DNA from: Flavobacteriales bacterium
Lineage (GTDB): Bacteria; Bacteroidota; Bacteroidia; NS11-12g; UBA955
NCBI GenBank assembly: GCA_947463125.1
Contig: CANHQZ010000019.1
Span: 1 to 36,593 of the forward strand
Direction: 5' to 3'
DNA length: 36,593 bases
A model generated the notes under the pieces. The model was not told the origin of the DNA. It searched no databases and saw only the letters and a program-made list of their open reading frames with translations. Position numbers and translations under genes: made by a program. Below, piece after piece: positions 15,144-21,528 of the stretch (position 1 is the first letter of the stretch; every line of letters begins with the position of its first letter).

Positions 15144-15480
15144 GGTTTTCAATTTTTACGGGCGGAACACTCAGCTCTTTCAAGCCATTGGGCTCCAGTT
15201 TTTTCGCCAGTTCACTTTGCTTGCTGGCATTGGTTATTTGGCTTTCCAGACTGATTTTTTCGCTATGCAGTTCTTTGAGTTCCTTAATTAGTTTGTCTTT
15301 GGTTCTCAGTGCTTTATTTGCATGGTGCTGGTTATAGATGTAAAACAGCATGAGGGCAAAAGCCACCAAACCAAACTTTACCCAGGACCAGATACCTGCG
15401 GATTCCTGCTGCTCGGGCGTTTCTGCCTGAGGCTGGCTGGTTTCTTCGGTCGGCTCCATTGGTTCCATTTCTGTATTCAT
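15121..15480 (-). CDS. ftsL: FtsL-like bitopic division protein
   Basis: 119 residues, ATG start overlapping the rsmH stop by four bases (ATGA). The first ~28 residues are very acidic and rich in Glu, Pro, Thr and Gln with no predicted fold. One membrane helix lies at about residues 30-50 ('VKFGLVAFALMLFYIYN'), and then a heptad-like charged stretch (about 52-95, Leu/Ile-rich with Lys and Glu) looks like a short coiled coil. That topology, the size and the place between rsmH and ftsI are those of FtsL, which joins FtsQ and FtsB to the FtsWI synthase. Sequence similarity alone would not identify it, since FtsL diverges fast; the call rests mainly on context. Confidence 0.85.
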   Translation of the reverse strand: MNTEMEPMEPTEETSQPQAETPEQQESAGIWSWVKFGLVAFALMLFYIYNQHHANKALRTKDKLIKELKELHSEKISLESQITNASKQSELAKKLEPNGLKELSVPPVKIENHVKSGKR

Positions 15481-16379
15481 CGTTTTACTCCTATTCTCAT
15501 TTTTGCACTGCGGGCGCGGTTGTTTGATGCTATTTCGAGGTCATCAGGCACAATGGCTTTATTGGGTTCCGGGTCAAACGGGCGTTCCACGTTGCCATAC
15601 AGATCGGTATGTCTTGTTCCTTCCAGATTGCCGGTTTGAAGAAAGTTTTTAACCATCCGGTCTTCCAGGCTATGATAGCTGATGATAACAAGGTGTCCGC
15701 CTTTGCCAATACATTCGCTGGATGCCTTCAGCAGCGCTTCCAGCGCCTGCATTTCGCCGTTGACTTCTATTCTCAGAGCCTGGTAAACCTGGCTCAGGTA
15801 TTTGGCAGGAGTTTGTTTTGGGGTGCAGGGCGCGATTGTCTTTTTGAATTGCTCTGTAGTTGTAATGGGATTGCCGGTGCGTCCCTGGCAAATGATGGAT
15901 GCCAGCCTTCCCGCGTTGGGAATTTCGCCCCACATTTTAAAAATATGCTTCAGTTTTGTCTCCGGGTAAGTGTTGACGATGTCAGCGGCCGAAAGCGATG
16001 CTTTTTTGTCCATGCGCATATCCAGCGGGCCTTCAAGCCTGTGGGCAAACCCACGTTCACCCACATTGATCTGGTGGGATGAAATGCCCAGATCAGCCAG
16101 GATGCCGGAGATAGGCATCATTTTGCCGTAGCGCATAAATTGTTTCAAAAACCGAAAGTTGTGGTTTACGAGGGTAAAGCGCTTATCGTCCGGAGCGTTG
16201 GCAAGGGCTTCGTCATCCCGGTCGAAGGCAATGAGTTTCCCTTTGGCAGATAGTTTTTTCAGAATGGCACGAGAATGTCCGCCGCCGCCAAAGGTGGCAT
16301 CTGCATAAATCCCGTTGGGATCATGCACCAGCGCATCAACACTGGGATTCAGCAGTACGGGTACGTGATATTCTTGCAT
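15477..16379 (-). CDS. rsmH: 16S rRNA (cytosine-1402-N4)-methyltransferase RsmH (MraW)
   Basis: 300 residues, ATG start. RsmH uses S-adenosylmethionine to methylate C1402 of 16S rRNA in the P site. The N-terminus 'YHVPVLLNPSVDALV' and SAM loop 'YADATFGGGGHSRAILKKL' (about residues 21-40) are typical, as are 'GILADLGISSHQ', the 'RGFAHRLEGPLDMRM' segment, the 'ALRIEVNGEMQALE' segment and 'ISYHSLEDRMVKNF'. It is the second gene of the cluster, 26 bases after mraZ. Length and motif order are normal. Confidence 0.97.
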   Translation of the reverse strand: MQEYHVPVLLNPSVDALVHDPNGIYADATFGGGGHSRAILKKLSAKGKLIAFDRDDEALANAPDDKRFTLVNHNFRFLKQFMRYGKMMPISGILADLGISSHQINVGERGFAHRLEGPLDMRMDKKASLSAADIVNTYPETKLKHIFKMWGEIPNAGRLASIICQGRTGNPITTTEQFKKTIAPCTPKQTPAKYLSQVYQALRIEVNGEMQALEALLKASSECIGKGGHLVIISYHSLEDRMVKNFLQTGNLEGTRHTDLYGNVERPFDPEPNKAIVPDDLEIASNNRARSAKMRIGVKR

Positions 16380-16405: not shown

Positions 16406-16873
16406 TTATGGCTCCTTTCTGCTACCCGACTGCTGATGAAAGATTTGGGCCAGCTTGCTGAGTTCGTCAGAATCCACCGAAAGCTCGGTTTCATAATTCG
16501 AACGGCTCCAGATTTCCACTTTGTTTCCGTAGGCACTCAGCACCACCTCGTCGGTGAGTTCTGCGTACTCGCACAGTTTTTTGGGAATCAGAACCCGCTG
16601 GGCAGTGTCAATCTGAACCAGGTTTGCACCATTGGTAAAAATGCGCTTAAAACGGCGAATTTCAGGGCTCAGAAAGTCATCTACCGCGGTCAGTTTGCCG
16701 GTTTCTTGCAACCAGTCTTCTCGGGTGTACAGAACGAGACATTTTTCAAATCCCCGGTTGACCACAAGCGTGTTTCCCGCGCTTTCGGGAAACTGCGCAC
16801 GAAGCCTTGATGGTAAAGACAATCTGCCTTTCTCATCCAGCTTACATACATACTCGCCAATCAATCCGGACAT
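16406..16873 (-). CDS. mraZ: Transcriptional regulator MraZ
   Basis: 155 residues, ATG start. MraZ is a DNA-binding protein with two tandem SpoVT/AbrB-like swapped-hairpin units that forms ring oligomers. In E. coli it represses its own dcw promoter by binding TGGGN repeats spaced by five bases. Both units are visible: 'CKLDEKGRLSLPSRLR' near residues 10-25 and 'IDTAQRVLIPKKL' near residues 82-95. It heads the dcw cluster, and TGGGA repeats of the expected type lie 38-63 bases upstream of its start, which points to autoregulation. The C-terminal ~15 residues are Gln/Ser-rich and poorly conserved. Confidence 0.96.
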   Translation of the reverse strand: MSGLIGEYVCKLDEKGRLSLPSRLRAQFPESAGNTLVVNRGFEKCLVLYTREDWLQETGKLTAVDDFLSPEIRRFKRIFTNGANLVQIDTAQRVLIPKKLCEYAELTDEVVLSAYGNKVEIWSRSNYETELSVDSDELSKLAQIFHQQSGSRKEP

Positions 16874-16910
16874 AGGTTTGGAATTCCGTCTGCTAAATAA
16901 AAACTAAAAA

Positions 16911-16936
16911 TCCCACTTTTTCCCACTTTTTACCCT
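16911..16936 (-). promoter_or_regulatory. MraZ box 1 (TGGGA direct repeats)
   Basis: Read on the minus strand, this has TGGGA-AAAAG-TGGGA (16925 to 16911), with a degenerate third unit AGGGT just upstream (16936-16932, spacer six instead of five). This matches the TGGGN-N5-TGGGN pattern bound by MraZ in E. coli. It lies between the predicted promoter and the mraZ start. Binding itself is inferred. Confidence 0.75.
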
Positions 16937-17020
16937 TTTTAAGCACCATTTATCCACATAACGGTTATAAATCGGGTTTTATTGTGGTTTATTTTTACAA
17001 TGAGATGATTAATTATTCAG

Positions 17021-17050
17021 CAAAAGTACTTAAAAAGCCCGTAAATACAA
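17021..17050 (-). promoter_or_regulatory. Predicted Bacteroidota-type promoter of the dcw cluster
   Basis: On the minus strand, TTG at 17050-17048 is followed after exactly 19 bases by TACTTTTG at 17028-17021. This fits the Bacteroidota primary-sigma consensus (TTG near -33, TAnnTTTG near -7). The start point would be near 17015, giving a leader of about 140 bases that contains MraZ box 1. Confidence 0.65.
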
Positions 17051-17058
17051 AGAATTTG

Positions 17059-17079
17059 AAAAAGTGGGTGAAAGTGGGG
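17059..17079 (+). promoter_or_regulatory. Putative MraZ box 2, inverted relative to box 1
   Basis: On the plus strand, TGGGT-GAAAG-TGGGG (17065-17079) preceded by AAAAAG reproduces the repeat pattern of box 1. Over 21 bases it matches the minus-strand copy at 16931-16911 in 18 positions. It lies just upstream of the -33 element of the mraZ promoter and about 80 bases upstream of the divergent gene. Function is inferred from the match. Confidence 0.55.
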
Positions 17080-17153: not shown

Positions 17154-17161
17154 TACCTTTG
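17154..17161 (+). promoter_or_regulatory. TAnnTTTG element abutting the start codon at 17167
   Basis: TACCTTTG fits the -7 consensus exactly and ends only five bases before the ATG. A start point 5-7 bases downstream would fall on the ATG itself, so the message could be leaderless. No TTG is seen at the -33 position. Confidence 0.45.
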
Positions 17162-17166
17162 TATAT

Positions 17167-17889
17167 ATGAGGATCGGAACGGCAGTCGTTTTTCTGTTGG
17201 TAATGCCCTTGCTGCAGGCTCAGACCGATTCTCGATATTCGCTGGGAATGGGTATTTCGCGATACGGTGTGGCCGTGTCATTCAGAAACGATAAAGCGCC
17301 ACAAACCTTTGAATCAGCCACACTCCGCCCCGGCGGGTTTTACCTGGAAGCCGGAAATATTCAGCATCCCCGGGAGGTTGCCGTTGTAAATACATTTTTT
17401 CAAAATTCGGGCAGCTACAAAGTTGACAAAACCCATTACGCATGGACGCTTCGTCCCGGACTTCTTTACACCTACACTTTGAGCGAAAGGGTAGACCGTC
17501 GCGCAGTCGGATTGAATGTGACCTCCGGACCCGGAATCGCACTCGCTTACACCTGGCCGGTTTATGTTACTATTCTTCAGGTAGATCCTTTTGGAAATGA
17601 GTACTTTGCCAACGTGCGGTATAATCCCGATGTACACAAAACCACGGAAATAGCCGGCAGGGCAGGATTTTCGGAAGGTTTTCCGGAAGGTCGCTTTACC
17701 CCCGGCCTTTCCTGGCAGGGCGGGCTGGATTTTCAATGGGCCAATTACAGAAATGATGTGAATACACTTACGCTGGGAGCCCGTGTGGAAGCTTTTTCCC
17801 GAAAACTGACCATTTTGCACAACAATGAGCTCAACAGAAGTTTGTTTTCCTCATTTTATATTAGTTTTGCATTCGGATTGGGAAGTTGA
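17167..17889 (+). CDS. Exported protein of unknown function, probable outer-membrane beta-barrel
   Basis: 240 residues, ATG start. A signal peptide is clear: a basic N-terminus, the hydrophobic run '[13 protein letters not shown]' and a likely cut after 'LQAQ' near residue 19. The rest has no membrane helix and shows alternating polar and hydrophobic residues with many aromatic and Gly residues, such as '[17 protein letters not shown]', '[13 protein letters not shown]', '[13 protein letters not shown]' and '[10 protein letters not shown]', ending '[12 protein letters not shown]'. That pattern suits an 8-12-strand outer-membrane barrel. I do not recognise a named family. The stop overlaps a possible TTG start of lipA (TTGA), so the two may be co-translated. 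Upstream are MraZ box 2 and a TAnnTTTG element. Confidence 0.8.
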
Positions 17890-18785
17890 TTTTTCCGCTC
17901 CGCGAAATCTTGCTGGAACTACCTGTCATATCCTCAGAAAAGCGCAGACCCTCCAAGCCTTCATGGCTCAAGATTGATTTGCCTACCGGCGAAAATTACA
18001 CGCGTGTTAAGCGCATCGTGAAAGAGCACAAGCTCCACACCATTTGCGAAGACGGACGTTGCCCAAATATGGGCGAATGCTGGGGCGCCGGAACAGCCAC
18101 CTTTATGATACTCGGAAACATCTGCACACGCAGCTGTTCATTTTGTGCCGTGGCCACCGGACGGCCCACCGAATACGATATTGATGAGCCTTACCGCGTT
18201 GCAGAAGCGGTGAAGCTGATGGGGGTAAAACATTGCGTAATTACTTCCGTAAACCGCGATGAACTCAAGGACAAAGGGGCCAGCGTATGGGCGGCAACCA
18301 TTCGCGAAGTAAAACGCCAGAATCCGGAGACAACCATTGAAACGCTGATACCTGACTTCAAGGCTCAATGGGACTTGTTGTATATGGTGCTCGATGAAAG
18401 ACCGGATGTGGTGAGCCACAACATGGAAACCGTGGAAAGGCTTTACCGTATAGTAAGACCGCAAGCCAAGTATAGCCGCAGTCTTGAGCAGATAAAACGC
18501 ACCGCGGAATACGGACTGAGAACCAAAAGCGGAGCCATGATGGGTTGTGGCGAAACCCGCGAGGAAGTAGACCGTCTGATGGATGATTTGTACAATCATC
18601 AATGCCATGTGCTCACCCTGGGTCAATATCTGCAGCCGACCAAAATGCACCTGCCCGTTGCTGAATTTGTTCATCCCGATCAGTTTAAGGCATGGGAAGA
18701 AGCAGGACTAGCAAAAGGTTTTCTGCACGTGGAAAGCGGCCCCATGGTGCGCAGTTCATACCATGCCGAAAAGCATGTGCTTTAA
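17886..18785 (+). CDS. lipA: Lipoyl synthase LipA
   Basis: Up to 299 residues. This radical-SAM enzyme inserts two sulfurs into protein-bound octanoyl groups to make lipoyl cofactors of 2-oxoacid dehydrogenases and the glycine cleavage system. The auxiliary-cluster cysteines are in '[12 protein letters not shown]' (C-x4-C-x5-C) and the radical-SAM cluster in 'CTRSCSFC' (C-x3-C-x2-C); 'ITSVNRDEL', 'NMETVERLY', '[11 protein letters not shown]' and the C-terminal 'RSSYHA' Ser ligand region are all present. No ATG exists before the cysteine motif, so the start must be TTG at 17886 (overlapping the upstream stop) or TTG at 17910, which gives '[13 protein letters not shown]', close to where other LipA proteins begin. 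Confidence 0.95.
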
Positions 18786-18927: not shown

Positions 18928-21528
18928 ATGAAGTTGAAAAATGCCCTTCTGTTTTCTTCAGCCGTAGCGCTGATGGCCGGCACGGCCTGGTTTTCCGGGA
19001 ATTCCTTCTCTGTAAAACCGTCCTTTGAAAAATGGATGACTGAGGAATCAGGAGAAGAAGAAGAAATTGGCCCTGCACTTGAATACCTCAAAATGCTGCG
19101 CGCCAATCCGAAAACCGGAACTATCGAGCCTGAATGGATTGAAGCCGCGATAGCCCAGGCAGACCGCCTGAGCATGTTGCGTCGTGCCTCCCTGCAGTGG
19201 ACCAATATGGGTCCCGACAATATAGGAGGGCGCTGCCGTGCGTTGCTTCTCCACAAAGATTCAGCCAATATTTGGTTTCTGGGTGGCGTGAGCGGAGGAC
19301 TTTTCCGCAGCAATACTTCCGGTTCCAGCTGGTTTCCTGTCAACGATAAGCAGGAAAACCTGAATGTAACATGCATAGCCCAAACCGACGACGGTACCAT
19401 TTATTATGGAACCGGTGAAGGAGGATTTACCAACCTGTCCGGAACACGTAACGGTTCACCTGCCTTCATAGGAAATGGCTTGTACAAAAGTACCAGCCCT
19501 TCCGGCACAGCCTTTACCAGAATGGCCAATACCGCTGACAGCAGATTTCTGTCATGCAACACCATGGCTGCTTATGGCAACAAGCTGTATGTAGGAACAG
19601 AGAGCGGTTTGTTTTTGCTAACCAACAATGGAACTACCATCAGCCAAATCCGCGGTGGCGCCTGCCTTGAAGTGAAGATAGACAAAAATGGCGTTGTTTG
19701 GGCCAGTTACTCCAACGGTTCTGTGTTCAAAAGCGATGCCAACGGAGCAAACTTTACCCAGATGAATTACGGTGGTCCAGCAGCACGTGTGGCCATTGCT
19801 ATTTCGCCGGAAGATCCTAACTATGTATATCTGCAAAACGCTCAAACCCGTCTGAACGGTGTTTGGCGCACCACCGACGGTGGTGTGACCTGGAGTCAAA
19901 TTGTGTTCTACAGCACTGTTACCGATAATATGGGAACCGGCCAGGGTTACTATGATAACGTGGCAGCAGTCGATCCTCTCAACAAGAACCGTGTATACCT
20001 TGGCGGTGTTTCCCTTGCTGTATGGGATAATATTAATGGCTACACTGAAATAGCTTCCATGTTCGGAGCACCCTGGAACAATGGCTATGTTCATGCCGAC
20101 AAACACATCATTCAGTTCGATACCAGACAGAACCCTCCGCTTATGCTTGTAGGCTGCGACGGAGGTCTTTTTGGCAGCAGGGACCGCGCAACCTGGACAC
20201 GCCTGAACCGCAATTTTACTACATATCAGTGTTACAACGTCGCTGCAAACAGCCTCGGGCACATTGTGGGTGGTTCTCAGGATAACGGAACGCAGTTGAT
20301 TAACTTTTCAGGAAATAGCATAAACGGTGTTCCCTCCAAAACAGCCCTTGAAATTTTGGGTGGAGACGGTTTTGACGTGGAATTTTCCAAATATTACCCC
20401 AAGACTATTTTTATGTGTACCTACTATGGTCGCATAGTGAGAACCGGCAACAGCGGTCAGTCAAGCTCATCTTTCTGGGACAGCCGTATCAAGCCGGATG
20501 ATGCAGCCGCAAATCCTCCCGATGTGGATTTTAATACCCATTTCACATTATGGGAACCCAACGATTCTACCTCACGCCTTTTCCTGGCGCGCAACGCTGA
20601 AGTTTGGGTTGCCATCAATCCTACCAACTTTATCGAAGATGTTACCTGGTTCCGCGTAGCTGCCAACCTCGGAAACGATCGTATTGTTGAAATGGATCAC
20701 ACCCCGGATGGAGCCCACTTGTTCATAGCGAAAGCTGGTAAGCTTTTCAGAGTAAGTGGTTTGGATTCAGCAAACTTTACAGTAGCTGCCAATCCCGGAA
20801 TCAATGACATTCCAAAGGCACTCAGCATCAGAACCATAACGCCTCCCGGTGCTGCATCCCGCGTAGTAACTTCTGTAAATGTGGATCAAGCCAATCCCAA
20901 CCATGTGGTGGTAACCCTCGGTGGATATGGTGATGTTACCTATGTAATGGAAACCAAAAATGCACTGGATCTCACACCGACCTGGACCAACATCACCGGC
21001 GATTTGCCCAAGATGCCGGTATACGACGCTGTAATTGATATTGACAATCCCAACCGTATCATTATAGGTACAGACCTCGGTGTGTTTATGACTGAAAACG
21101 GCGGAACCAACTGGGCAGAAGCCAACAACGGAATGGCGCGCACACCTGTGTTCGAAATTCGTGGCTATGAGTGGAGACCCTGGGAGGGCATGAAACTCTA
21201 TATCGGAACCCATGGTCGTGGTTACTACCAGAGCATGAGCCTCACCACCGGAAACAAGAGAATTTCTGATACCTACACCGGCCTGAAAGCGTGGCCTGTA
21301 CCTGCGGGTAACCTGCTGAATGTATCTTTCCGTTCAAACGGCAATGAAAAAGTAACCGTGGAAATTTACGGTATGGACGGTAAGCGTTACCAGCAAAACC
21401 AGCCTGTTGTATCTGCCGGAAGCAATACCATTCAGCTGAATACTGCATCACTGCCTACAGGCAATTACTTTGTTCGCATCAGCGGCAAAGAAGGAAGCAA
21501 CAGCATCAAATTCAATGTAACCAAATAA
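18928..21528 (+). CDS. Secreted Asp-box (sortilin/VPS10-like) beta-propeller protein with T9SS sorting domain
   Basis: 866 residues, ATG start. An N-terminal signal peptide (about 1-27) precedes a ~60-residue acidic region, then a long propeller (about 90-770) with repeated Asp-box-like turns: 'NTSGSSWFPV', 'TTDGGVTWSQI', 'RDRATWTRL', 'TENGGTNWAEAN'. Glycine-Asp pairs such as 'GGVSGGLFRS' and 'GCDGGLFGS' recur between them. The last ~80 residues from 'LKAWPVPAGNLLNVSF' to 'SIKFNVTK', including 'MDGKRYQ' and 'LPTGNYFVRISG', form a type A T9SS C-terminal domain, so the protein should be exported and anchored or released at the surface. No catalytic residues of glycoside hydrolases can be asserted; it may bind glycans or proteins. 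A strong terminator follows. Confidence 0.88.
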   Translation: MKLKNALLFSSAVALMAGTAWFSGNSFSVKPSFEKWMTEESGEEEEIGPALEYLKMLRANPKTGTIEPEWIEAAIAQADRLSMLRRASLQWTNMGPDNIGGRCRALLLHKDSANIWFLGGVSGGLFRSNTSGSSWFPVNDKQENLNVTCIAQTDDGTIYYGTGEGGFTNLSGTRNGSPAFIGNGLYKSTSPSGTAFTRMANTADSRFLSCNTMAAYGNKLYVGTESGLFLLTNNGTTISQIRGGACLEVKIDKNGVVWASYSNGSVFKSDANGANFTQMNYGGPAARVAIAISPEDPNYVYLQNAQTRLNGVWRTTDGGVTWSQIVFYSTVTDNMGTGQGYYDNVAAVDPLNKNRVYLGGVSLAVWDNINGYTEIASMFGAPWNNGYVHADKHIIQFDTRQNPPLMLVGCDGGLFGSRDRATWTRLNRNFTTYQCYNVAANSLGHIVGGSQDNGTQLINFSGNSINGVPSKTALEILGGDGFDVEFSKYYPKTIFMCTYYGRIVRTGNSGQSSSSFWDSRIKPDDAAANPPDVDFNTHFTLWEPNDSTSRLFLARNAEVWVAINPTNFIEDVTWFRVAANLGNDRIVEMDHTPDGAHLFIAKAGKLFRVSGLDSANFTVAANPGINDIPKALSIRTITPPGAASRVVTSVNVDQANPNHVVVTLGGYGDVTYVMETKNALDLTPTWTNITGDLPKMPVYDAVIDIDNPNRIIIGTDLGVFMTENGGTNWAEANNGMARTPVFEIRGYEWRPWEGMKLYIGTHGRGYYQSMSLTTGNKRISDTYTGLKAWPVPAGNLLNVSFRSNGNEKVTVEIYGMDGKRYQQNQPVVSAGSNTIQLNTASLPTGNYFVRISGKEGSNSIKFNVTK

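Follow-up and report, generated by a model that had tools for sequence, protein, structure and literature searches.

A conserved, inverted second MraZ-type array upstream of the dcw promoter in Bacteroidota points to a two-part and possibly loop-forming operator

The window, by which we mean the whole 36,593-nucleotide stretch of DNA analysed here, is one contig of a 2.34-Mb Bacteroidota genome. On its minus strand mraZ opens the dcw division cluster and is followed on the same strand by mraW, an FtsL-like protein, a penicillin-binding protein, MurE and MraY, and on the plus strand a gene for an exported protein and lipA run divergently. The place of mraZ as first gene of the cluster with mraW next, together with domain scores above the curated cut-offs (PF02381, TIGR00242), identifies its product as a member of the MraZ family. 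Proteins of this family carry two DXXXR motifs, one in each domain, and the translation here contains DEKGR and DTAQR; solved structures of MraZ relatives include 1n0e, 9qlr, 9qlg and 9sx6. For comparison we defined a clade of relatives with at least 69% MraZ identity, which provided 42 unique upstream regions. The genes adjoining the region of interest are as follows:

15477-16379, minus strand: mraW (rsmH), second gene of the cluster (PF01795, E=3e-83)
16406-16873, minus strand: mraZ, regulator and first gene of the dcw cluster (PF02381, E=1.4e-26; TIGR00242, 117.4 bits against a cut-off of 98.35)
17167-17889, plus strand: divergent exported protein, syntenic in most of the clade
17886-18785, plus strand: lipA, lipoyl synthase (TIGR00510, above cut-off)

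Searches of Pfam and NCBIfam with the exported protein returned no match. Downstream of lipA, an 866-aa protein with a T9SS type A sorting domain (18928-21528) is also syntenic in most of the clade. The intergenic region between mraZ and the exported-protein gene spans 293 bp and contains two MraZ-type boxes, termed box 1 and box 2, along with promoters that, like the start sites, were predicted from consensus, start codons being chosen by profile fit:

16888-16900, minus strand: TTATTTAGCAGAC, a nearly invariant element located between the start codon of mraZ and box 1
16912-16929, minus strand: box 1 core, AAAGTGGGAAAAAGTGGG, with a pair of strong MraZ-type units oriented like mraZ; exact match, conserved in the clade
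16912-16957, minus strand: full box 1 array, five graded units, from the information content across 42 relatives aligned at box 1
17021-17028, minus strand: predicted -7 element of the mraZ promoter P1, TACTTTTG (TAnnTTTG)
17048-17051, minus strand: predicted -33 element of P1, TTTG, 19 bp from the -7 element
17061-17078, plus strand: box 2, AAAGTGGGTGAAAGTGGG, with two strong units pointing opposite to mraZ; exact match
17154-17161, plus strand: predicted -7 element of the divergent promoter, TACCTTTG (CAAAnnTA on the other strand), conserved in 38 of 42 relatives

Read directly from the window, the two inverted boxes agree at 18 of 21 positions (minus strand 16931-16911, AAAAAGTGGGAAAAAGTGGGA, and plus strand 17059-17079, AAAAAGTGGGTGAAAGTGGGG), as a previous sequence-only reading of this DNA had proposed, and each holds two GTGGG units at a 10-bp period, the box centres being 148 bp apart (about 150 bp in that reading). 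Box 1 had been described there as a two-unit box, which holds for its strong pair and not for its extent: the conservation profile instead reveals a graded five-unit array, with GTGGA, GTG, nGGG, GTGGG and GTGGG at -31, -20, -10, 0 and +10, counted from the first strong unit. In the window the five units read GTGGA, GTGCT, AGGGT, GTGGG and GTGGG at steps of 11, 10, 10 and 10 bp, and only the last two of them are strong. Both boxes display the hallmarks of an MraZ operator, namely at least two GTGG-type units at a 10-bp period adjoining mraZ. Exact matches to AAAGTGGGNNAAAGTGGG in the whole 2.3-Mb genome number two, the two 18-base box cores, and a search allowing up to two mismatches adds one further site, with two mismatches, inside mraW at 16050-16067; this site is unconserved in relatives and was dropped as a candidate third MraZ operator. 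When at most one mismatch is allowed, six of the seven genus members have a single match per strand, both adjoining mraZ, and no others; the seventh (L039) has no match at this threshold, yet both boxes are visible in it with GTGGG units. As a separate observation, the outermost box 1 unit, TGTGGATAA, coincides with a perfect DnaA-box sequence, TTATCCACA (16950-16958), which lies 31 bp before the first strong unit and reads TTWTCCACA in most of the clade. In related families the core GTGGA is kept and the nonamer is not, and the site could be either a DnaA site or a weak MraZ unit.

The placement of the mraZ promoter between the boxes proved sound. Its Bacteroidota-type elements, TTTG-N19-TACTTTTG on the minus strand (17051-17021), recur as a -33/-7 pair in most relatives, with the 19-bp spacing preserved in 26 of the 29 in which both elements were found. 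Relative to the inferred start, box 1 would lie inside the 5' leader, ~60-105 nt downstream, and box 2 ~45-65 bp upstream, just upstream of the -33 element. On the other side, the predicted divergent promoter almost abuts the ATG at 17167, so that the exported-protein message may be nearly leaderless. Between box 1 and mraZ, the hexamer TTAGCA within TTATTTAGCAGAC is present in 39 of 39 clade loci, with invariant columns, and the full 13-mer has its only exact genome copy here; TTAGCA also follows the MraZ array in seven of eight sampled genomes of f25, a family of another class, and in L213.

We compared genomes across Bacteroidota, together with E. coli. Within the clade, the inverted pair CCACN6CCAC is found near -205, always inverted, in 42 of 42 unique regions, most of them from metagenome-assembled genomes and not, where the genomes are related, independent observations. 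Among close relatives, box 2 is therefore not lost while box 1 is kept. All 39 members of a first set of relatives had the pair, where shuffled sequences would give 0.18, and in an alignment anchored on box 2 its positions average 1.65 bits per site, against 0.33-0.49 in the unconserved flanks. Spacing is held as well. Box 2 stands 49-50 bp from the P1 -7 element in 37 of 37 relatives with a recognised -7, and 139-143 bp from the first strong unit of box 1 in nearly all clade members (L044, an apparent exception through an artefact of the search pattern, belongs to the main group). In the three genomes of genus g2 the boxes are 131-133 bp apart, about one helical turn shorter, and this step coincides with the loss of roughly one box 1 unit. 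The spacer itself has a median identity of 38-40% among spacers of equal length, compared with 28% for shuffled spacers: between the boxes the sequence has drifted and the length has not. A conserved leader RNA structure was rejected as the cause of the fixed length, as RNAalifold finds no pairs. Both arrays thus exist, are unique in the genome and conserved, and are spacing-locked to the mraZ promoter and to each other.

Outside the clade, four sister genera within the family (g3, g9, g11 and g13) lack the inverted pair in all 18 genomes, most of which have three strong direct units instead; box 2 is accordingly not essential to MraZ control, since these genomes manage without it. Nor was the pair found in most other families sampled. 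In a phylum sample of one genome per genus (60 regions), a direct pair lies near mraZ in 41, against 0.11 expected, and an inverted upstream pair in 11, against 0.21 expected, the latter concentrating in f25. In that distant family a similar inverted pair recurs: it occurs between -400 and -125 in 50 of 67 unique genomes, with 0.25 expected, spacings other than six bases being rare, and the same interval of the 67 genomes contains no direct pair. The f25 promoter is of the TTGACA type, with 30 bp from the start of the -35 element to that of box 1, which there lies near the start site; the box-to-box distance ranges from 97 to 278 bp. Upstream of mraZ in a related family (L073-L090), the direct array and the inverted box enclose a conserved stretch of approximately CCGTCCATAAACGCTAA. 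The 18 sister-genus genomes without box 2 would agree with its being a chance or relic copy without function, a reading to which we attach next to no probability because the conservation tests already contradict it: the pair is universal among the 42 clade regions, stands at fixed spacing between randomised flanks, and is also present in f25.

The sister genera bear on a further alternative, in which each box would serve a promoter of its own: box 2 would be the operator of P1, and box 1 that of a second promoter, P2, located downstream at the TTATTTAGCAG element. In its favour, the sister genera have a -7 element just after the array, and groups without box 2 carry TAnTTTT(A/G) or TAnnTTTG just downstream of the array, in the homologous place. 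However, TATTTAGC is a poor -7 match that is more rigidly conserved than the P1 elements, and the fixed distance between P1 and box 1 would go unexplained; we consider such an arrangement very improbable.

As the sequence-only reading had noted, box 2 also lies upstream of the divergent exported-protein and lipA genes. It stands between back-to-back promoters, which invites the idea of a shared operator through which the division cluster and the divergent unit would be coordinated. The synteny of exported protein and lipA in most of the clade would fit such a role, as would the 53-57 bp that separate box 2 from the divergent -7 element in 27 of 38 relatives. On the other hand, this distance varies overall from 44 to 86 bp, and is mostly 82-84 bp in the window's own genus, whereas that to the mraZ -7 element is fixed; genus g2 retains box 2 though it lacks the exported-protein and lipA genes; and several f2 genomes, as well as 26 of the 40 box 2-bearing f25 genomes whose neighbour could be classified, have a tandem and not a divergent gene upstream. 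Box 2 is kept in genomes without lipA, or without any divergent gene at all, and so belongs primarily to mraZ; we judge the shared operator improbable as the explanation of box 2, which could nevertheless act also on the divergent promoter in this clade. Of the earlier proposal, the second, inverted MraZ operator is strongly upheld by conservation, orientation and fixed spacing, and it can be accounted for without joint control of the divergent unit.

A single array was correctly taken to be the known arrangement: E. coli, B. cenocepacia and the Mollicutes all carry one direct array each, located at the promoter or just downstream of it. The E. coli mraZ promoter (Pmra) resembles the locus studied here in its GTGGG units at a 10-bp period, located at -44, -34 and -24 from the start codon, and shares the unit context AAATTGTGGG with relatives of the window, but its three units are all direct and make up one array, which closely follows the -10 element near the start site, and the 601-bp intergenic region holds no inverted pair. 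The Mollicutes and Burkholderia cenocepacia are alike in carrying three or four direct AAAGTGK-type repeats with 3-nt spacers (PMC5282649, PMC7761207), as an (AAAGTGKN3)3 operator in the former (PMC5282649) and as four direct units overlapping the start in the latter (PMC7761207); in contrast to the present locus, the portions of these two reports on which we draw describe one direct array and mention no inverted partner. Our search of the open literature returned no report of a second, inverted MraZ array, nor of looping by MraZ. We regard the inverted two-array operator as a variant of the known MraZ autoregulatory operator.

GalR, LacI and AraC are loop-forming repressors with two operators flanking a promoter, ~100-200 bp apart, at a spacing that matters; in their loops a dimer or tetramer bridges mostly palindromic sites. 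At the locus studied here the operators likewise lie on either side of the promoter, of the order of 100-200 bp apart, and both are conserved, as in a two-operator loop-forming repressor. The difference lies in the protein, as MraZ is ring-forming and acts on tandem asymmetric units. We propose a two-part MraZ operator on which MraZ would close a loop over the dcw promoter: box 1, the graded array of five units, forms its leader part, and box 2, whose two units are strictly inverted, its part immediately upstream of the -33 element. MraZ rings on the two arrays would contact each other, or one ring would span both, and the resulting loop of ~150 bp would strengthen negative autoregulation of the division cluster; MraZ acts as a repressor in both E. 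coli and M. genitalium (PMC8475190, PMC7761207). Judged from sequence comparison, we hold this proposal to be just on the probable side of even.

The main rival to looping is an activating box 2 combined with a repressing box 1, where MraZ would act twice and separately, activating P1 from box 2 and repressing or roadblocking from box 1 in the leader, as a homeostatic switch. Box 2 is indeed at an activator-like position, at its fixed 49-50 bp from the -7 element, and MraZ is described as a mycoplasma activator in work cited in PMC7761207. Two separate actions would, however, leave unexplained why the leader keeps its length from P1 to box 1 to within a few bp although its sequence is not conserved, and why the inverted array of f25 stands at widely varying distances from the promoter, distances too variable for a fixed activator contact by box 2. 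We therefore consider separate actions rather unlikely. Direct communication between the arrays is favoured by the fixed length over drifting sequence, the strict inversion in two lineages and the f25 distances, and its simplest form would be a loop closed by multivalent MraZ rings. Of the two roles offered by the sequence-only reading, looping is accordingly the better one, on these same grounds, though the loop itself is what we infer.

Several points count against looping. The spacing could be held separately on either side of the promoter, with no loop needed, and the preferred helical phase of f25 differs from that of the window clade. The 18 sister-genus genomes without box 2 weigh against it as well. 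On helical phasing between the arrays, the clade shows a fixed length with a step of about one turn in g2, and f25 a 10.5-bp periodicity of its distances that speaks for a loop but is weak (Rayleigh p ~0.05 and jitter p 0.03 for distinct distances; jitter p 0.002 for all lineages) and no more than suggestive, its lineages being partly dependent on one another. The idea that all families share a single helical phase was discarded, as the f25 distances and those of the window clade have no one phase in common. The broader claim, that MraZ is a DNA-looping repressor whose rings bridge outward-pointing arrays enclosing the promoter in at least two Bacteroidota lineages, is a tentative one, to which we give somewhat less than an even chance.

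MraZ is among the most conserved bacterial transcription factors, and neither the reason for its ring nor its mode of cluster control is settled. The single-array model, which derives from E. coli and mycoplasmas, does not hold for every lineage, and a conserved inverted operator at fixed spacing offers a natural system for testing looping. If true, looping would explain why so widespread a regulator forms a multivalent ring.
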